Assembly: GCA_945870425.1 (NCBI GenBank)
Contig: CAMBSD010000001.1
Span: 1-64,000 of the forward strand
Direction of reading: 5' to 3'
Length of the DNA: 64,000 nucleotides
From: Chitinophaga pinensis
GTDB taxonomy: Bacteria; Bacteroidota; Bacteroidia; UKL13-3
Shown here: positions 29,865-38,747 of the stretch, one piece after another
Position numbering within the stretch: position 1 is the stretch's first letter
How the letters are laid out: each line of letters starts with the position of its first letter
Program-made: the position numbers and the translations under genes
The notes under the pieces: generated by a model
The model's database searches: none
The model's input: the letters and a program-made list of their open reading frames with translations, nothing else
Told to the model about the DNA's origin: nothing

Positions 29865-31280
29865 CTACCCCAAAGCCTTAATTTCACTTACCAATTGGGT
29901 AAGGGCTTTTTTGGCATCACCAAATAACATGCTGGTTTTAGGTTTGTAGAACAATTCGTTTTCAATACCCGCGTATCCTGCTTTCATGCTTCGTTTGTTT
30001 ACAATCACATTGGTAGCATTTTCTACATCCAATATTGGCATACCATAAATAGGTGAATTAGGGTCGGTTTTAGCAGCAGGGTTCACAACGTCATTAGCCC
30101 CTACAACCAATACCACATCAGTAGTGGCAAATTCAGGATTCACTTCTTCCATCTCCACCAATTTATCATAGCTTACATTACTTTCAGCAAGCAATACATT
30201 CATATGGCCAGGCATACGACCTGCTACAGGGTGAATGGCATATTTAACCTCTACTCCTTCGCTTTCAAGCAATAATTCCAAATCGTGAACAATATGCTGT
30301 GCTTGGGCTACAGCCAGTCCATAACCAGGAACGATGATTACTTTTTTAGCATATTTCATCAAAATAGCGGCATCGCTGGCTGTAACTTCTTTGATACTTC
30401 CTGCAAAAGAAGAAGAAGTAGCAGCCTCTCCAGTTGAGCCTCCACCAAAGTTACCTATTAATACATTTACCAATGAACGGTTCATGGCTTTGCACATCAC
30501 AATGGTTAGCAAGGTACCTGCAGAACCTACTAGAATACCACCTACCAACATTACTTTATTGTCATATAAGAAACCACCGCAAGCCGCAGCCACACCTGTA
30601 AATGAGTTGAGCAAAGAAATTACAACAGGCATATCAGCACCACCAATAGGCAATACGAATAGGATTCCATAAAGCAATGACAAGATAAATACGATATAGA
30701 ACAACTCAATGGTATAAGTTCCATCTCCAAAAATCATCATACCTGAAAGAACAAGGATTACTGCCAACAAACCAATATTAATAAGCTGTTGCATGCCCAA
30801 TGATTTGTCTTTTACATTTCCGCTCAATTTACCCCAAGCGATGATACTACCTGCAAAGGAAACCGAACCAATTATCAGACCCAATACAATGGTTAGCAAA
30901 TGACCAGGAGCTACTAAAGACAGGTCTGTATCGCTTAAGTGTCTGAACTCAATAACGGAAATAAGCATGGCACAAGCGCCACCCATACCGTTGAACAAAC
31001 TCACCATTTCAGGCATGGCTGTCATTTGCACTTTTTTGGCCACTATCCAACCGATGATAGTACCTACGATAAGTGCACCAAAAATGAAACCTAGGTTGTG
31101 CAAATGCTCACCCGTTTCTGTGGTGTAAAGAAAAATGGTTCCGAAAATGGCAAGCACCATACCGAATGCTGCAATTAAATTTCCCTGACGAGCTGTAGCA
31201 GGGTTTCCTAAAAATTTTAATCCTCCGATAAATGTTACCGAAGCTATTAAATAAATAATTTGTAATATGTGTTGTTGCAT
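29865..31280 (-). CDS. pntB: NAD(P) transhydrogenase subunit beta
   Basis: 471 residues. Part of the inner-membrane pump that uses the proton gradient to reduce NADP+ with NADH. About eight to nine membrane helices (about 1-270) are followed by the NADP(H)-binding domain III (about 300-471), with IIVPGYGLAVAQAQH, HPVAGRMPGHMNVLLAE, VLVVGANDVVNPAA and FGDAKKAL. It is the last gene of the pnt operon, separated by 102 nt from the alpha-2 subunit gene. The intervening DNA has T/G-rich near-repeats (TTGGATTGT) but no clear regulatory element. Confidence 0.95.
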   Translation of the reverse strand: MQQHILQIIYLIASVTFIGGLKFLGNPATARQGNLIAAFGMVLAIFGTIFLYTTETGEHLHNLGFIFGALIVGTIIGWIVAKKVQMTAMPEMVSLFNGMGGACAMLISVIEFRHLSDTDLSLVAPGHLLTIVLGLIIGSVSFAGSIIAWGKLSGNVKDKSLGMQQLINIGLLAVILVLSGMMIFGDGTYTIELFYIVFILSLLYGILFVLPIGGADMPVVISLLNSFTGVAAACGGFLYDNKVMLVGGILVGSAGTLLTIVMCKAMNRSLVNVLIGNFGGGSTGEAATSSSFAGSIKEVTASDAAILMKYAKKVIIVPGYGLAVAQAQHIVHDLELLLESEGVEVKYAIHPVAGRMPGHMNVLLAESNVSYDKLVEMEEVNPEFATTDVVLVVGANDVVNPAAKTDPNSPIYGMPILDVENATNVIVNKRSMKAGYAGIENELFYKPKTSMLFGDAKKALTQLVSEIKALG

Positions 31281-31382
31281 GTTTGCTTTTGTTGGATTGT
31301 TATTATTGTTGGATTGTCATATTGTTTGATCTATTGCTTAAAGACTTAATTCTAAAAACAACTTAACAGCTAAACCAATCAA

Positions 31383-31676
31383 CTATTTTTTCTTTTTAAA
31401 CATCTCGAGCATTCTATCCGTTACCACAAAACCCCCTACTACATTCAAGGTTCCTAATACCACAGCCAAAAAGCCCAAAATTAATGATACCATTTGAGTA
31501 GCTTGTCCCATTACTATAATAGACCCAATGATAACCACACCATGAATGGCATTTGCTCCACTCATAAGGGGTGTATGCAATACAGATGGCACATGACCTA
31601 TTAGTTCAATACCAACAAATACCATCAAAATAATGAGGTAAAACATTTCGATGTGTTGTGTTATAAATTCAAGCAT
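31383..31676 (-). CDS. pntAB: NAD(P) transhydrogenase subunit alpha part 2
   Basis: 97 residues with three hydrophobic segments, the membrane part of the alpha subunit encoded separately, as in many bacteria with three-gene transhydrogenases. Features: GVELIGHVPSVLHTPLMSGA, then NAIHGVVIIG, the conserved loop next to the second helix, and a basic end (MFKKKK). The HepT toxin gene of the inserted MntA/HepT pair ends 6 nt before its start, so this subunit depends on read-through of the toxin-antitoxin pair or on a promoter inside it. Confidence 0.93.
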   Translation of the reverse strand: MLEFITQHIEMFYLIILMVFVGIELIGHVPSVLHTPLMSGANAIHGVVIIGSIIVMGQATQMVSLILGFLAVVLGTLNVVGGFVVTDRMLEMFKKKK

Positions 31677-31682
31677 AATTTT

Positions 31683-32021
31683 TTAGTTATTTGAGTTATA
31701 AATATTATTCATTTGTTCTTGTAAAACTGGAATTTCTTTTTCTAAAATTTCCCAAAGCAATGGAAAATCTATTATGTTATAATCGTGCACTAGTATGTGA
31801 CGAGTTCCTGCTATTTGTTTCCATTTAACATCGTTATATTTTTCTTTGGTTTCAGGGTTAATTTTTATACAAGCTTCACCAATTATTTCAACAAGTTTAA
31901 CCAACGCCCATTTTGCTGCTAAATCGCTTACAAAAGCATCATAATTTAGCTTTACTTTTATCTTGCTAATTTGTTCTATTGCATCTATAATATGGCCTAC
32001 TCTTTCTTTATCTTTATCCAT
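31683..32021 (-). CDS. hepT: HepT-like HEPN ribonuclease toxin (DUF86)
   Basis: 112 residues with the HEPN active-site motif R-x4-H-x-Y in RHILVHDY (about residues 75-82). HepT toxins cut RNA and are silenced by the partner nucleotidyltransferase MntA, which AMPylates the Tyr of that motif. The start overlaps the mntA stop by 8 nt, the standard arrangement. The pair lies between pntA (alpha 1) and pntAB (alpha 2), in the same direction, with gaps of only 5 and 6 nt to the pnt genes. Confidence 0.88.
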   Translation of the reverse strand: MDKDKERVGHIIDAIEQISKIKVKLNYDAFVSDLAAKWALVKLVEIIGEACIKINPETKEKYNDVKWKQIAGTRHILVHDYNIIDFPLLWEILEKEIPVLQEQMNNIYNSNN

Positions 32022-32310
32022 TTTTTTGAAACACTAACTGCTTGTCTTTTTCAATGTATGGTTTTAATCTTTGCGATAAACCGCCAACAGAAACCAAATC
32101 AATTTTCACTCCAATCGTTTCTTCTAAATCCAATTTCATATCTACAAAATCGAATAATGAAATCTTACTTGAGTAATCAATATCTACTAATATATCAATA
32201 TCATTATAATTAGGTTCATCTCTGGCAAATGAGCCAAAAATATAAACCTTGTTTACTGGTTTATTAATAAAATATTTTTTTATAGTTGATATAATTTCAA
32301 ATCTATTCAT
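32014..32310 (-). CDS. mntA: MntA-like nucleotidyltransferase antitoxin
   Basis: 98 residues, minimal nucleotidyltransferase. The signature GS..........DxD is present as GSFARDEPNYNDIDILVD (about 26-43), with a further Asp in GVKIDLVS, the third catalytic carboxylate. It is expected to AMPylate and silence the HepT toxin encoded next. The start is 5 nt after the pntA stop. Such pairs are often mobile or horizontally acquired; here it interrupts a metabolic operon without breaking any gene. Confidence 0.88.
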   Translation of the reverse strand: MNRFEIISTIKKYFINKPVNKVYIFGSFARDEPNYNDIDILVDIDYSSKISLFDFVDMKLDLEETIGVKIDLVSVGGLSQRLKPYIEKDKQLVFQKNG

Positions 32311-32315
32311 TCGTA

Positions 32316-33419
32316 TTATTTCAAAATCTTACCTTCATGAGTAATTAGCGTTCCTTTGGTAATTTCTTCTTCCATTTCCCATTTAAAGCCATCTTTTGTT
32401 GCCAATAAAGCTAATAAATTCTGAATGTTTTTGGCATATAATTCACTTGCATTTTGAGGTAATGTACTTGGCAAATTGCTTTGTCCAACTAAAGTAACTC
32501 CATGTTTAACCACCACTTTATCTAACTCACTTAATTCACAATTTCCTCCTTGCTCAACAGCCATATCCACTATTACAGAGCCTAGTTTCATTTGCTTCAC
32601 TTGTTCTTCAGTAATCAATACAGGGGCTTTTTTACCCATTACCAAAGCCGTAGTTATTACTAAATCCGCTTGAAATAGGCTTTTATTAACCGCTTCTTTT
32701 TGTTTTTGTAAATAATCAGCAGAAACCTCTTTGGCATATCCGCCTTCTACTTTGGCGGCTTCAGCATCTTTCACTTCAATGTATTTTCCACCCAATGATT
32801 CCACTTGTTCTTTGGTTTCAGGGCGAACGTCTGTTACTTCTACAATGGCACCAAGTCTTTTGGCTGTAGCTACTGCCTGTAAACCCGCTACACCAGCACC
32901 GTAAATCAACACGCGGCTTGGGGCAATGGTTCCAGCGCTTGTCATCAACAATGGAAATATTTTAGCCATATGGTTTGATCCTAAAACTACTGCCTTATAT
33001 CCTGCTAAATTATTCTGAGAACTCAAAGCATCCATGTTTTGCGCACGGCTTATACGTGGTATGGCATCCATACTGATGGCGCTCACCCCTTGCTCGGCTA
33101 ATTTGGCTGTCAAATCAGGATTAAAAGCATGGTATAAATATGATATGGTAATCGTACCCTTTTTCATCAATGAAATTTCATCCATGCTTGGGGCATTTAC
33201 TTTCAATACAATTACGGCATTACTAATCAACGCATTTTTATCAGATGACAATTCGCAACCCGCATTTTTGTAAGCTTCATCACTAAAATTTGAAGCATAT
33301 CCTGCATTATTTTCAATACTAACTTCATAGCCAAGTTTAATTAATGCTTGAGCAACTGTAGGAGAAAGAGCCACACGATTCTCGTTGGCTTTGGTTTCTT
33401 TGATAACAACTATCTTCAC
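32316..33419 (-). CDS. pntA: NAD(P) transhydrogenase subunit alpha part 1
   Basis: 367 residues, the soluble NAD(H)-binding domain I of transhydrogenase, related to alanine dehydrogenase. Seen: the start MKIVVIKETKANENRVALSP, the dehydrogenase motif VLIYGAGVAGLQAVATAKRL followed by DVRPETKEQVESLGGK, and VIVDMAVEQGGNCEL. It is the first gene of the operon. The usual next gene (pntAB) is displaced by the MntA/HepT pair. A TACTTTAG element at about 33445-33452 (minus) is a weak -7 candidate. Confidence 0.95.
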   Translation of the reverse strand: MKIVVIKETKANENRVALSPTVAQALIKLGYEVSIENNAGYASNFSDEAYKNAGCELSSDKNALISNAVIVLKVNAPSMDEISLMKKGTITISYLYHAFNPDLTAKLAEQGVSAISMDAIPRISRAQNMDALSSQNNLAGYKAVVLGSNHMAKIFPLLMTSAGTIAPSRVLIYGAGVAGLQAVATAKRLGAIVEVTDVRPETKEQVESLGGKYIEVKDAEAAKVEGGYAKEVSADYLQKQKEAVNKSLFQADLVITTALVMGKKAPVLITEEQVKQMKLGSVIVDMAVEQGGNCELSELDKVVVKHGVTLVGQSNLPSTLPQNASELYAKNIQNLLALLATKDGFKWEMEEEITKGTLITHEGKILK

Positions 33420-33606: not shown

Positions 33607-34383
33607 ATGAAAACCCTGAACAATGTTTTAAAACCCATATTTATTGTGGCCATCATTCTGACAATTGGATTCTCAGGATGCAAAAAGAATTGGTTTAATT
33701 TTGAAGAAAACTCAGGTGGAAAGGGAAGTGGAGGTAGCACCAATACGGGTAATATCATTTATGCTAAGGGTACTATAGTTAATTTCGAATGCGGCAAAAG
33801 CATTTACAATGATGGCAACAATTTGTGGATCAAATTGGATGATGGTCAAATGTTACAACCATGTGAGCAAACCTTTAAAACCACTGCTACCATTGTGTTA
33901 CATGATGGAGATAAAGTTGAACTGAAATACCACAAATATGCAGGTAGCATCACAGGATTTGAGTTTTATTGCAAAATAGCCAACTTCAACTACACAAGAG
34001 CAAGTATTGATTATATTGGAACAATTGGCACAAGGACCACCACTAGTTGCCCTAATGTAATCATGGCAAAAGATTATGACAAACAAACTAGCGCTAGTGC
34101 AAATATGTTAGATGCTAAACTTGTGGGCATGGAGTTGCAGCTAAACATTGGTTATAGTGGATGTTCTAAAAACCCAAAACGATTTGGAATGATTGCTAAA
34201 TTATTACCAACCGCTGGACCTTTGCCAGTGTATGAAATAAAATTGATAGACAATGCACCTGAAATGTGTATGGCTGCATTTACAGATAATGTATGCTATG
34301 ATTTGTCGGCACTTAAAAATCTAAGCAATAGCAGTAAAATAAGTGTTGTTATAAAAGGCACAAACACTCAGTTTTCATTGTAG
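33607..34383 (+). CDS. Lipoprotein of unknown function
   Basis: 258 residues. Lipoprotein signal with IILTIGFSGC as the lipobox (Cys at about 25), then a Gly/Ser linker (GGKGSGGSTNTG). The mature part has many Cys (for example NFECGKS, MLQPCEQTF, TTSCPNV, YSGCSKN, MCMAAF, NVCYDL), which suggests disulphides in an exported domain. No family is recognised. It stands alone at the left edge of the accessory island, convergent with the truncated DUF4159 copy. Confidence 0.7.
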   Translation: MKTLNNVLKPIFIVAIILTIGFSGCKKNWFNFEENSGGKGSGGSTNTGNIIYAKGTIVNFECGKSIYNDGNNLWIKLDDGQMLQPCEQTFKTTATIVLHDGDKVELKYHKYAGSITGFEFYCKIANFNYTRASIDYIGTIGTRTTTSCPNVIMAKDYDKQTSASANMLDAKLVGMELQLNIGYSGCSKNPKRFGMIAKLLPTAGPLPVYEIKLIDNAPEMCMAAFTDNVCYDLSALKNLSNSSKISVVIKGTNTQFSL

Positions 34384-34391
34384 TAATTTAT

Positions 34392-34429
34392 AGTATGTGT
34401 TTGTTAAAATCAATTAGCAAACACATACT
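34392..34429. other. Hairpin at the island's left junction
   Basis: AGTATGTGTTTG (34392-34403) and CAAACACATACT (34418-34429) are perfect complements. The right arm belongs to the duplicated DUF4159 gene end (codons of QYVFAN), so the left arm is in effect a short inverted copy of that end. It could terminate the lipoprotein gene, or mark the recombination junction. Confidence 0.6.
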
Positions 34430-34616
34430 GCAAAATATTTGCGCCCATTTTTAGTGCTTGTTGACGAATGTTTTCAGGGTCATTGTAGATATCTTGGTCT
34501 TCCCATCCGTTTCCTAAATCGCACTCATAAGTATAAAAGCAAACCAATCTGCCTTTGTACATTAATCCGAAGCCTTGTGCGGGTTTTCCATCATGCTCAT
34601 ATACCTTGGGTAAGCC
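34410..34616 (-). pseudogene. Duplicated 3' fragment of the DUF4159 gene
   Basis: Encodes 68 residues plus stop, matching residues 152-219 of the intact DUF4159 protein at 39133-39792 (GKPAQGFGL, YKGRLVCFYTYECDLGNGWE, NILQYVFAN). The two DNA copies align without indels at a fixed offset of 4723 bp; differences are scattered and mostly silent. Upstream of 34616 the similarity stops abruptly next to a REP-like hairpin, and the open frame that continues beyond it is unrelated. There is no proper start, so this is a gene fragment. With the intact gene it forms a direct repeat enclosing the island. Confidence 0.85.
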
Positions 34617-34620
34617 ACTG

Positions 34621-34663
34621 TTCGGAGTCTTGTGTGCTGGGCAATAGCGTAGCTGACTCCGAA
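34621..34663. repeat. REP-like hairpin at the gene breakpoint
   Basis: TTCGGAGTC (34621-34629) and GACTCCGAA (34655-34663) are perfect inverted repeats around a GC-richer middle containing GCAATAGCGTAGC. It lies 5 nt from the point where the DUF4159 fragment loses similarity. Composition is unlike the surrounding AT-rich DNA. Confidence 0.6.
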
Positions 34664-34710
34664 TAAATAAATGAAAAATGAGTTTGCAACTCATCTATTC
34701 TTATAGGTTT

Positions 34711-34824
34711 CCACCAACAACATTTAACCCCAAGCCCATAAACCACCCCACCACCAAACACCACACAAAAACGAATATTCATACCCATTTTATGGCAATA
34801 TAAACAGAAATATAACTTGCTTTT
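34711..34824 (+). promoter_or_regulatory. Conserved upstream region, copy 1 of 3
   Basis: About 115 nt shared with 36449-36564 and 37336-37448. Landmarks in order are CCACCAACAACATTTAACCCC, a C/A-rich stretch (CCACCCCACCACC), ACAAAAACGAATA, and the end AAATATAACTTGCTTTT. The last element looks like a core promoter, about 50 nt before the lipoprotein start at 34874. Confidence 0.6.
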
Positions 34825-34873
34825 GTACAAGTAATTCCCGAACCTTTGTTAAAACTAAAATTAAACCTTCATT

Positions 34874-35506
34874 ATGAAAATAAAACTACTACCATTACTA
34901 TTTATGTGTTTTATGCTAATACAGAGCTGCGTTAGACCTTACGACCCTGATTGCCCTAAATTCAGCACTAAATACACAACATTAACGCCCGAAGCCATTA
35001 AGCAAACACCCTATTTTACCAACCCAGATTTTGATACCATTAGCTATGCAAGCGATAAAGGAGATACTGTAACTTTTGTAAAAACTAAGACCGACACTAG
35101 CTGGTATTGCGAAAATGAATACCCAAGTGGACCAGATTGTGGACCTCAAACAAAGTGTTACCAAATACTACATAGTACCTATGCAACTATTAAAGGTAGT
35201 GGGAGTTTTGATGTGAAGCATGTCTTACGGACTAACAATTTAGTTACAAATGAAGTTCAAATAACATTCAATGAATTAATTTTTAAGCCAACCGATTATA
35301 GAATAGGAACATCAAATGGATCAACATTAGGGGTAACATTTTTTGAGACCATTAATTTAAATAATAATACCTATAAAAAAGTAAATAAATATTATCATGA
35401 ATTAAACCAATCTGATATGGGTATTTGTTTCATAAATGTTAATTACGGATTAATTAGACTAATAGACATTGAAAATAATTTAACATTTGATTTAATAATA
35501 AAATAA
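34874..35506 (+). CDS. Lipoprotein, first member of a repeated family
   Basis: 210 residues. Lipobox FMLIQSC puts the lipid-anchored Cys at about 19. The mature part shares landmarks with the gene fragments downstream: L T.EA....P Y......D T.SYA..KGDT..F.....DSSWYC....P, then SGSFDVKHVL. Several Cys in the region of about 75-95 (WYCENEYPSG, CGPQTKCYQI) suggest disulphides. The end NYGLIRLIDIENNLTFDLII is recognisable in the third copy. The next gene follows after 6 nt, so the two form an operon. Function unknown. Confidence 0.7.
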   Translation: MKIKLLPLLFMCFMLIQSCVRPYDPDCPKFSTKYTTLTPEAIKQTPYFTNPDFDTISYASDKGDTVTFVKTKTDTSWYCENEYPSGPDCGPQTKCYQILHSTYATIKGSGSFDVKHVLRTNNLVTNEVQITFNELIFKPTDYRIGTSNGSTLGVTFFETINLNNNTYKKVNKYYHELNQSDMGICFINVNYGLIRLIDIENNLTFDLIIK

Positions 35507-35512
35507 TTAATT

Positions 35513-36376
35513 ATGAAATACTTATCAATTGTACTGTTCTTTATAATATTGATTACTAAAAATTCATACGCTCAGCCATGCACAGACATAGAAGAACTAT
35601 TTAGGAAACGACATCAGGTAGATGGTATGACATACGGTCACCCATACACTACCTTCGATAGACACAATGAAAACTACATTGATTTGGATTATACCTTAGA
35701 GAAAATTAGGAAAAGAATCATTCAAGAGTCTCCTGACGATGTAAAAGGTCCAATCTTCAAAGCCTATCAAACATTATATTCCAAAGCAGTCGAATCTATG
35801 CCTGGCGACAACGGAATGCCAAAAGATGGTATTAGCAACCTAGCCCTTTGGTCTAAAAACAATGCCTTTGTTTTTTTGGTTGGGCTAGATGGAGATGGAA
35901 ACTATATGGACACACATATCTATTCTGGACACACCACAGCTTCATTCGATAAAAGAAACGAATTTAGAGATCGTGCAGTTAATGCCTTCGACCATTTAAT
36001 AGGCGAAATAGACAAAGCCCCAACCAACCCTTGGCTGTTGGCTATACCCATTGTTGGCGCTCATGTGTATGCTGCTACTTATTTAAATGACGAACAAGAT
36101 TATTTAGGAAAAATACAGAACCAGTGCCGCAGCCTCACCCTTTGGCTACAAAGCTATGATTTGATTAAAGCCGAATATGCTTCAAATGATTTACGCTTTG
36201 GCATTGCACCACGCTGTAAATGGGGCTTTGGCGACTATGACAGAAACGATTATAACTGTAGCCCACGTAATAAAATGCGACAACTTACCAAAGACTTGTA
36301 CTATTATAGCAAAGGTAACTTCGGCATTGTAGAACACAAATACGGATGGAAAAAGAACCGCTACTCGACATGTTAG
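35513..36376 (+). CDS. Exported protein of unknown function, C-terminus ending in a REP-like hairpin
   Basis: 287 residues with a signal peptide (MKYLSIVLFFIILITKNSYA). The mature part is soluble, contains three to five Cys, DGDGNYMDTHIYSGHTTASF in the middle and a weakly hydrophobic stretch (NPWLLAIPIVGAHVYAATYL, about 172-191). No family is recognised. The last codons (Tyr-Ser-Thr-Cys, then TAG) come from the REP-like hairpin at 36362-36394, so the original C-terminus may have been lost or altered. A second, heavily truncated copy of the gene start stands at 37212. Cotranscribed with the lipoprotein gene upstream. Confidence 0.65.
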   Translation: MKYLSIVLFFIILITKNSYAQPCTDIEELFRKRHQVDGMTYGHPYTTFDRHNENYIDLDYTLEKIRKRIIQESPDDVKGPIFKAYQTLYSKAVESMPGDNGMPKDGISNLALWSKNNAFVFLVGLDGDGNYMDTHIYSGHTTASFDKRNEFRDRAVNAFDHLIGEIDKAPTNPWLLAIPIVGAHVYAATYLNDEQDYLGKIQNQCRSLTLWLQSYDLIKAEYASNDLRFGIAPRCKWGFGDYDRNDYNCSPRNKMRQLTKDLYYYSKGNFGIVEHKYGWKKNRYSTC

Positions 36377-36394
36377 CGCAGCGCATGTAGAGTA
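36362..36394. repeat. REP-like hairpin overlapping a gene end
   Basis: TACTC-g-ACATG (36362-36372) pairs with CATGT-a-GAGTA (36384-36394), with one mismatch and a GC-rich loop containing AGCGCAGCG. It contains the stop codon of the gene at 35513. Confidence 0.6.
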
Positions 36395-36448
36395 ACAGAT
36401 AAAAAAGGATTTGAATCCTCATTACGTCCGTTCATTACTTATAGGTCC

Positions 36449-36564
36449 CCACCAACAACATCTAACCCCATGCCCAAAAACCACCCCACCCCCATACACC
36501 GCACAAAAACAAATACTAATACCTATTTTATGGTTATATAAACAAAAATATAACTTGCTTTTAT
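36449..36564 (+). promoter_or_regulatory. Conserved upstream region, copy 2 of 3
   Basis: Second copy of the 115-nt region seen at 34711-34824, about 80-85% alike by eye, ending in AAATATAACTTGCTTTTAT. It precedes the lipoprotein at 36609 by about 45 nt. Confidence 0.6.
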
Positions 36565-36608
36565 GCTATTGTATTTTTAATATATGTTAAACACTTAAAC
36601 ACTACATT

Positions 36609-37196
36609 ATGAAAACAAAACTACTGTACATTTCCATTATTAGCTTGCTTTTTATTATACAAGCCTGCAAAAGAACTGAACCCGATTGTGGTGACCTTAG
36701 CGATGTTATTACCAACTACAATATTTCTGATGCAGATAAAGCTAAAATACCCTATACCGGCACAGATACTCTAGTGTTTATTAGCGATGCCAATGATACT
36801 GCAACCCTTATAGGGCAAGGCAAAAACTCATATTATGAAACTATAAAAACCAATATTAGTGGTGGTGATTGCCCCAGAACAAAAGTGGATAAAAACGAAA
36901 CAATTGATATTGAATATAGTGGAAATAACAACGATTTGCATACCATCAAGTATAATATCCATAATAGTAAAGACAAAACTTCTATAGAATACTATATTAA
37001 TAATATATATGGACAAGATTATCCATACTACTTAAATACAACCTCTTTTTATATTGACTCTGTAGCAATACATGGAAAGTATTTTACAGGAACATCAATA
37101 ATTTTACCTGATGTATTAAATGCTGTATATAACTATAATTATGGATTTCTAAAAATACAGTTTATTGGCGGTAAAACCTGGTATTTGAAACTTTGA
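36609..37196 (+). CDS. Lipoprotein, second member of the repeated family
   Basis: 195 residues. Lipobox LLFIIQAC (Cys at about 20). The start (RTEPDCGDLSDVITNYNISD, then DKAKIPY) parallels the first and third copies (VRPYDPDCPKFSTKYTTLTP, then EAIKQTPY), but the middle has diverged strongly and the WYC motif is missing. It is preceded by the same upstream region and followed after 15 nt by a truncated copy of the signal-peptide gene, so the whole two-gene unit was duplicated. Function unknown. Confidence 0.65.
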   Translation: MKTKLLYISIISLLFIIQACKRTEPDCGDLSDVITNYNISDADKAKIPYTGTDTLVFISDANDTATLIGQGKNSYYETIKTNISGGDCPRTKVDKNETIDIEYSGNNNDLHTIKYNIHNSKDKTSIEYYINNIYGQDYPYYLNTTSFYIDSVAIHGKYFTGTSIILPDVLNAVYNYNYGFLKIQFIGGKTWYLKL

Positions 37197-37211
37197 TAAA
37201 CAAATTAATAT

Positions 37212-37295
37212 ATGGAAAAATTATTTACTGTTTTGTTACTCCTATTAATTTTTAATTCCAAAGTATATCCCCCGCAGTCGCTAGCGTCTCGCTAG
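37212..37295 (+). pseudogene. Truncated second copy of the signal-peptide gene
   Basis: 27 codons from ATG at 37212: MEKLFTVLLLLLIFNSKVYP, then residues derived from a REP-like hairpin and a TAG stop. Its position after the second lipoprotein copy and its signal peptide match the start of the gene at 35513 (MKYLSIVLFFIILITKNSYA). The body of the gene is gone. Confidence 0.55.
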
Positions 37296-37301
37296 TGAAC
37301 T
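37276..37301. repeat. REP-like hairpin at the truncation point
   Basis: AGTCGCTAGCG (37276-37286) and CGCTAGTGAACT (37290-37301) form an imperfect stem around TCT. It sits exactly where the truncated gene at 37212 stops resembling its paralogue. Confidence 0.55.
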
Positions 37302-37335
37302 TATTGATTAGCCTCTGGCTGTTTTCATGATCTTG

Positions 37336-37448
37336 CCACCACCAACATTTAACCCCATGCCCAAAAACCACTCCATCATCAAACATCACAAAAAAACGAA
37401 TACTTATACCAATATTTTGGCTGAGTATCAAAAATATAACTTGCTTTT
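37336..37448 (+). promoter_or_regulatory. Conserved upstream region, copy 3 of 3
   Basis: Third copy of the 115-nt region. It keeps CCACCACCAACATTTAACCCC, the C/A-rich part and the AAATATAACTTGCTTTTAT end, and stands about 40 nt before the lipoprotein start at 37487. Confidence 0.6.
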
Positions 37449-37486
37449 ATGCAGGTAATTAATTAATCTTTGTTAAACTTGAATTT

Positions 37487-38129
37487 ATGAAAAAATTAGC
37501 TCAACTATTAATATTAATAACAATTTCGACCTTGTTTTTAAGATGTCAAGATAAAAGCAATGTCCATTGTAAGCCTCAAGAGTATTCCTACCTCACCATA
37601 ACTGATGAGGCCAAAAGCAAAGTGCCATATTTGAAACCGTCATTTGATACTTTGAGCTATGCAAATAATAAAGGGGATACCTTAGTTTTTGCGCGTCAAC
37701 CTAAAGATAGTAGTTGGTATTGCACACCCTCATATCCAAATACTGACTGCTTACCTGATTACTATTGTTACGAAAATTATGGAGCAAAATATACCTGCAT
37801 AAAGGGTAATGGTAAGTTTGAGTTCAAGCATGCATTAAAAGCAGAATTAACAGTTGGTTTACCACCAAGTACAAAGGTATATAACAGAATAGTTTGCTTT
37901 ACTTTTTCTAATATGAACCTTTGGTTAAATGACTATTCTGTAGGTAAAAAGGAATATATATTATATAAATTCTATTACAATAAATAATAAAATTTTTAAC
38001 GATGTAATATATACTTATAATAATGATAACGACACAACTAGTGGCAAAGGTTATTATAATAGTGAATATGGTTTATTTTCGATTGAAGATAGAGAAAATA
38101 ATACAAATTGGATTTTAATAAGTAAATAA
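37487..38129 (+). pseudogene. Frameshifted third member of the lipoprotein family
   Basis: The frame from 37487 gives 166 residues: lipobox TLFLRC, then PSFDTLSYANNKGDTLVFAR and DSSWYC, very close to the first copy. It stops at 37985-37987. In the next frame the family's C-terminal part goes on from about 37990 (NKIFNDVIYTYNNDND, then YYNSEYGLFSIEDRENNTNW), matching YGLIRLIDIENNLTFDL of the first copy, and ends at 38127-38129. A single frameshift near 37970-37990 explains this. The product would lack its last 45-50 residues. Confidence 0.7.
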
Positions 38130-38195: not shown

Positions 38196-38747
38196 ATGAG
38201 CAGAAAATATAAATTTTTAGACCAATCGAAACTCTATTTTGTGAGTTTTGCAACAGTTTATTGGATAGATGTTTTTACGAGAGAGCTATACAAGCAAATC
38301 TTAATTGATAGTTTAAAGTACTGTCAGCAAAAAAAAGGATTAGAGATTTTTGCATGATGTATAATGACAAATCATGTTCATTTAATTATTGGTACAGAAG
38401 GAAATAAAATGGAAGATATTTTGAGGGATTTTAAATCATTTACCTCAAGAGAATTGAAAGAAGTAATAAAAAACAATATTCAAGAAAGCCGAAAAGAGTG
38501 GATGGTATGGATGATGGAACGAGCAGGTAAACTTAACAACCAAAACGCAAATTGGCAGCTATGGCAGCAACACAATAAACCAATTGAATTATTTACATAT
38601 TCAGTTATAAAACAAAAGTTAGACTACATACATAACAACCCAGTAGAAGCAGGTTTTGTTACAAATGCAATTGATTGGAATTATAGCAGTGCCATTGATT
38701 ATGCAGGTGAGAAAGGGCTTTTGGATGTAAAATTATTGGACGAATAA
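38196..38747 (+). pseudogene. REP-associated tyrosine transposase (RAYT) broken by one in-frame TGA
   Basis: From the ATG at 38196 the frame reads MSRKYKFLDQSKLYFVSFAT and on to KKGLEIFA, then TGA at 38355-38357, then CIMTNHVHLIIG and on to the stop at 38745-38747. In RAYT proteins this site is a Trp (A-W-C-I-M), so one TGG-to-TGA change explains the stop. The HVH metal motif and the Tyr of DYIHNNPVEAG are intact downstream. RAYTs handle REP hairpin DNA as single strands. The downstream part could start again at the ATG at 38364 but would lack the N-terminal strand. Confidence 0.85.

Follow-up and report, generated by a model that had tools for sequence, protein, structure and literature searches.

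Between two subunit genes of the NAD(P) transhydrogenase (pnt) operon, the window, i.e., the whole stretch of 64,000 nucleotides from Chitinophaga pinensis that was analysed, carries a pair of genes resembling mntA and hepT. This pair is probably a mobile toxin-antitoxin (TA) module of type VII, a common kind in bacteria, which lodges in narrow junctions between operon genes and relies on the expression of its host operon. Comparison with relatives suggests that the pntAA-pntAB junction, as well as nuoF-nuoG of the respiratory complex I operon, has been repeatedly settled by small mobile-looking genes that were then lost or swapped, rather than holding an ancient fixed arrangement.

The five genes of the locus are all intact and lie on the minus strand in the order pntAA, mntA, hepT, pntAB, pntB. 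The alpha-1 subunit gene pntAA (32316-33419) has a GTG start; its product matches Pfam AlaDh_PNT_N/C and, above the cut-off, NCBIfam NF006942. It is followed after 5 nt (32311-32315) by mntA (32014-32310), whose reading frame overlaps that of hepT (31683-32021) by 8 nt (32014-32021). A gap of 6 nt (31677-31682) precedes pntAB (31383-31676), encoding the alpha-2 (4TM) subunit (Pfam PNTB_4TM, E 1e-31). The beta subunit gene pntB (29865-31280; Pfam PNTB, E 8e-182) comes after 102 nt devoid of ORF (31281-31382), a place where relatives often carry an IVP gene. The arms of a possible relic IVP hairpin in this last gap were suggestive by eye, but the candidate was dropped (fold z -0.62).

An earlier note on this DNA had reported an MntA/HepT pair on the same strand as the transhydrogenase genes around it, with gaps of 5 and 6 nt and without damage to either neighbour. 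These coordinates are exact, and the neighbours it meant, pntAA (alpha-1) and pntAB (alpha-2, 4TM), are both intact with Pfam matches. Pattern scans, which have little power, detected neither a minus-strand terminator-like site between pntAA and pntAB nor an exact Bacteroidota-type promoter in 29.8-33.6 kb. The latter interval holds three promoter hits with one mismatch, none of them sensibly placed, and the count of such hits over the whole window is at chance level.

Both genes are named from their Pfam matches, their motifs and their arrangement as a pair, because the NCBIfam equivalogs for HepT and MntA (NF047751/NF047752) match at 41.6 and 32.8 bits, below their cut-off of 60. The putative toxin is a HepT-like HEPN ribonuclease (PF01934, E 1.9e-22) showing the RX4HXY motif as RHILVHDY, with R, H and Y invariant across the alignment; no match to PDB sequences was found for it at 0.01. 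The putative antitoxin, a MntA-like minimal nucleotidyltransferase, matches NTP_transf_2 (E 3.9e-9), Polbeta (E 1.4e-11) and PADLOC PDC-S09 (1e-16), and its nearest solved chain is 1wot (E 2.4e-7). As expected for a type VII system, the PF01934 HEPN gene adjoins a PF01909 MNT gene on the same strand.

The published type VII MntA signature is GSX10DXD (PMC7641770), whereas the MntA of the window reads GSX9DXD (GSFARDEPNYNDID), its spacer being one residue shorter. The G, the S and both D of the motif are kept and are invariant in the alignment. Nucleotidyltransferase motifs in general allow other spacers. We take this MntA as a variant that presumably works like its family, and make no claim of strict type VII HepT/MntA membership because of the spacer of 9 instead of 10 residues. 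The pair resembles HepT/MntA of Shewanella oneidensis (SO_3166/SO_3165; PMC7641770) by its PF01934 and PF01909 domains, its adjacent genes and its RX4HXY and GS-DXD motifs. It differs by this spacer, by scores below the NCBIfam cut-offs and by its place inside pnt.

pntAA was found in 62 of the 64 genomes of the window's family. Both junctions were measured in 200 non-redundant pnt loci from this family and the class Bacteroidia; since these loci were picked by the similarity of their pntAA to that of the window, the rates hold for the pnt type of the window and not for the whole phylum. Among 196 scored pntAA-pntAB junctions, 159 are short (<=150 nt), 6 contain MntA/HepT, 13 an IVP-type gene and 18 other inserts. 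The pntAB-pntB junction, scored in 189 loci, is short in 163, with IVP-type genes in 19 and other inserts in 7. The IVP-type genes that were checked match PF05635 and the others were assigned by a small HMM trained on those, so that borderline calls may be misfiled (e.g., L112, unrecognised by Pfam). Searches across the family place HepT directly behind pntAA in four genomes, that of the window (G000), G062, G034 and G036. The earlier note had named one gene order throughout the phylum, i.e., an ancient linkage, as what would speak against its reading; with 6 carriers among 196 Bacteroidia loci, such an order is ruled out.

Other contents of the pntAA-pntAB gap were also seen. A conserved ORF of ~120 aa (with YWYERSL) fills it in L283, L285, L286 and L112, and the one tested has no Pfam match. 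In L107 and L114/L138/L129, the ORF-less gap folds into hairpins of very high stability (z about -6 to -11).

On a pnt protein tree of 197 tips, the six carriers need 5 parsimony changes, about 5 gains. In the joint HepT+MntA tree, the pair of the window groups with that of G062 (UFBoot 95) and then with that of L145 (UFBoot 92), and the L108/L109 and L136 pairs branch elsewhere. As these three groups are separate on this tree, at least three lineages of the pair reached the pntAA-pntAB junction. The sister clade of the window has an IVP gene in this junction in 6 of 8 loci; the same is true for L137, the sister of L145.

The joint clade of the window, G062 and L145 could also reflect a single insertion in their common ancestor, followed by vertical inheritance at pnt and many losses. 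This is rather unlikely. The clade is supported (UFBoot 92-95) and its three MntA have in common the rare spacer of 9 residues, which is found only in the window, L183, L145 and L078 among the 63 listed pairs with MntA. However, the most recent common ancestor of the window and G062 loci subtends 48 tips of which 2 are carriers, and that of all three subtends 75 tips with 4 carriers. Furthermore, the separate HepT and MntA trees support this grouping weakly, and L078 has the 9-residue spacer too, yet its pair lies ~4.5 kb from pntAA. This L078 pair, upstream of pntAA with unrelated genes in between, was judged coincidental. The pairs of the window/G062/L145 lineage may stem from one arrival, from several, or from spread by homologous recombination within the pnt genes on either side.

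The earlier note had proposed that the placement stabilises the pair. It would then have been selected because a deletion risks damaging pnt, with transcription of pntAB and pntB, and with it the subunit stoichiometry, needing read-through of the pair. Such stabilisation by location is possible but unlikely: the tight gaps around the pair, the repeated hits at subunit junctions of important enzymes and the purifying selection on resident pairs agree with it, but in 159 of 196 loci the pnt genes are intact around an empty junction, and the sisters of both the window and L145 hold different (IVP) cargo in the pntAA-pntAB gap. The proposal was therefore not borne out, because damage-free gain, loss or replacement is common at this junction; the comparative picture points to turnover.

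Resident pairs look like working modules under strong purifying selection. For the pnt-resident pair of two congeners, dN/dS is 0.04 (mntA) and 0.07 (hepT), and 0.02 for pntAA; the nuo-resident pairs give 0.08-0.09. The genes of the pair are therefore maintained, not decaying. With 25.6% GC, mntA is the lowest of the 51 ORFs of the window, hepT has 28.6%, and in all six pnt carriers the insert is lower (0.26-0.33) than the upstream pntAA (~0.40). This AT-richness is compatible with acquisition, although it is frequent in small genes anyway, and the codon usage of mntA-hepT is ordinary for the window. A search of plasmid DNA gave no match, and phage records gave two remote ones, both unannotated, at 28-29% identity.

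Operon embedding is no rule for the MntA/HepT module, because only 5 of 52 evaluable pairs outside pnt are tightly embedded on both sides. Two of them (L209 and L217, from the same genus, in a family other than that of the window) lie between sucA and sucB, which are not adjacent in the window's family, so that this junction is unusable there as a control. Of the three others, one lies at nuoF-nuoG, one between an Fe-ADH and a kdsA-like gene, and one, flanked by a methyltransferase gene and a LolC-like permease gene, belongs to the genome of the window itself. The methyltransferase, LolC-like, Fe-ADH and kdsA-like neighbours were named by sequence inspection, not by family search.

The nuoF-nuoG junction was scored at 43 loci of the window's family, which include 6 complete pairs, 1 mntA only and 10 other inserts. 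A 'hep' call at L384 was judged spurious, being a match to an ORF for a secreted protein. The pairs belong to another MntA/HepT lineage than that of the window and form one clade by MntA. The HepT of L379 falls outside the nuo clade although its MntA is of nuo type, which suggests that the toxin half of this pair was swapped. In L357, L366, L370, L379, L381 and L417, the junction is filled by MntA/HepT pairs and by small secreted-looking ORFs (MKTK...FEKE type, ~100 aa).

Since operon junctions are abundant everywhere, the pair could have landed at pnt by chance, as the free-standing state of most MntA/HepT pairs would allow. However, 0.04-0.07 pairs are expected per given junction in the family, against 4 observed genomes from 3 genera, counted as 3 events. 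A rough Poisson estimate, for which the junctions per genome and the number of conserved junctions were assumed and not counted, gives P about 1e-5 to 6e-5, or 2e-3 to 2e-2 allowing for about 300 conserved junctions, and makes chance landing very unlikely. That pairs recur at pnt, nuo and suc, all operons for NAD(P)H-linked complexes, could evoke another explanation, the domestication of the pair as a pnt regulator, with for example HepT trimming pnt mRNA in energy stress. We consider this highly improbable: several MntA/HepT lineages occur at pnt, most pnt operons have none, and unrelated cargo also enters the pnt and nuo junctions.

The main unrelated cargo at pnt consists of single 23S_rRNA_IVP genes (PF05635), found in the pntAA-pntAB or pntAB-pntB gaps of L043, L044, L047, L049, L072, L075, L077, L137 and others. 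This family of four-helix 23S rRNA intervening-sequence proteins occupies the same junctions in relatives as the pair. Outside pnt, 16 of the 17 sampled IVP genes (L337-L356) with both neighbours found lie between co-directional genes; operon junctions seem to be their normal home. In the window's genome, 2 of 4 IVP genes have an in-frame stop (G000:C2:210156-210470 and G000:C8:62212-62481).

At pnt junctions, most IVP inserts have arms on both sides that are AT-rich and complementary to each other (z about -3 to -8). No such arms were found around the MntA/HepT inserts, which therefore do not have the structure of a hairpin-flanked (IVS-like) cassette. Because arms flank the single IVP genes and not the pairs, both probably arrive by different routes. 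A broader proposal is that pntAA|pntAB, pntAB|pntB and nuoF|nuoG, all in bioenergetic core operons of Bacteroidota, are true insertion hot spots, to which an undescribed route delivers compact promoter-less cassettes, either hairpin-flanked IVP genes or MntA/HepT, leaving the operon undamaged; we put it forward tentatively, as a doubtful extension.

In the favoured reading, that of a mobile TA module borrowing host expression, an intact HEPN/MNT module would have been acquired horizontally and landed in the pntAA-pntAB junction, where mntA-hepT would be transcribed with the pnt genes as one polycistronic message. By analogy with the family (PMC7641770), HepT would be an RNase cleaving mRNA, silenced by MntA through adenylylation of the Tyr of RX4HXY. 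Toxicity and neutralisation are thus expected from the family, and co-transcription from the gene spacing as well: with gaps this narrow and overlapping frames, the antitoxin would be made first, in step with the host genes. Insertion between ORFs would spare the enzyme while gaining a steady promoter, which could be the advantage of the site. A sloppy deletion would harm the cell and an exact one would be free of cost, so that the cargo of the junction could turn over. The tight pntAA|pntAB, nuoF|nuoG and sucA|sucB junctions, each between genes for subunits of a core enzyme, would in this way be recurrent settling places for HEPN/MNT modules in Bacteroidota.

The insertion of a single HEPN-MNT module in a metabolic operon is already known. 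Thermus thermophilus HB8 carries one in its lysine biosynthesis operon, and it is absent from HB27 (Makarova 2009, PMC2701414). As in the case studied here, the module lies within a metabolic operon and is missing from a close relative. Unlike it, the pnt junction was entered by several pair lineages and by the IVP family, and the new point is this recurrence at one junction. In the same way, alien genes are known at fixed positions inside the histidine operons of Bacteroidota (PMC8305728). They are likewise unrelated small genes between operon genes, but this survey was restricted to his genes and its main text names no toxin or nucleotidyltransferase genes. Among the open-access papers searched, we found none that describes a MntA/HepT pair in an operon for transhydrogenase or complex I, or the meeting of different MntA/HepT lineages at one junction.

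Empty, IVP-filled and TA-filled junctions within one family provide a tractable natural series. It bears on why chromosomal TA modules persist and on the way in which small genes can join an operon without disrupting it. If different module lineages repeatedly settle one junction, this would point towards selection on location, which is rarely measured for TA systems. For annotators, passenger genes in subunit operons of Bacteroidota should not count as functional partners.

Elsewhere in the window, a row of small lipoprotein-like genes occupies 33607-37987 on the plus strand, of which at least three (34874, 36609 and 37487) look like diverged paralogues. On the same strand lies an ORF (38364-38747) whose start, MTNHVHLI, is by eye typical of REP-associated tyrosine transposases and points to a putative member of this group.
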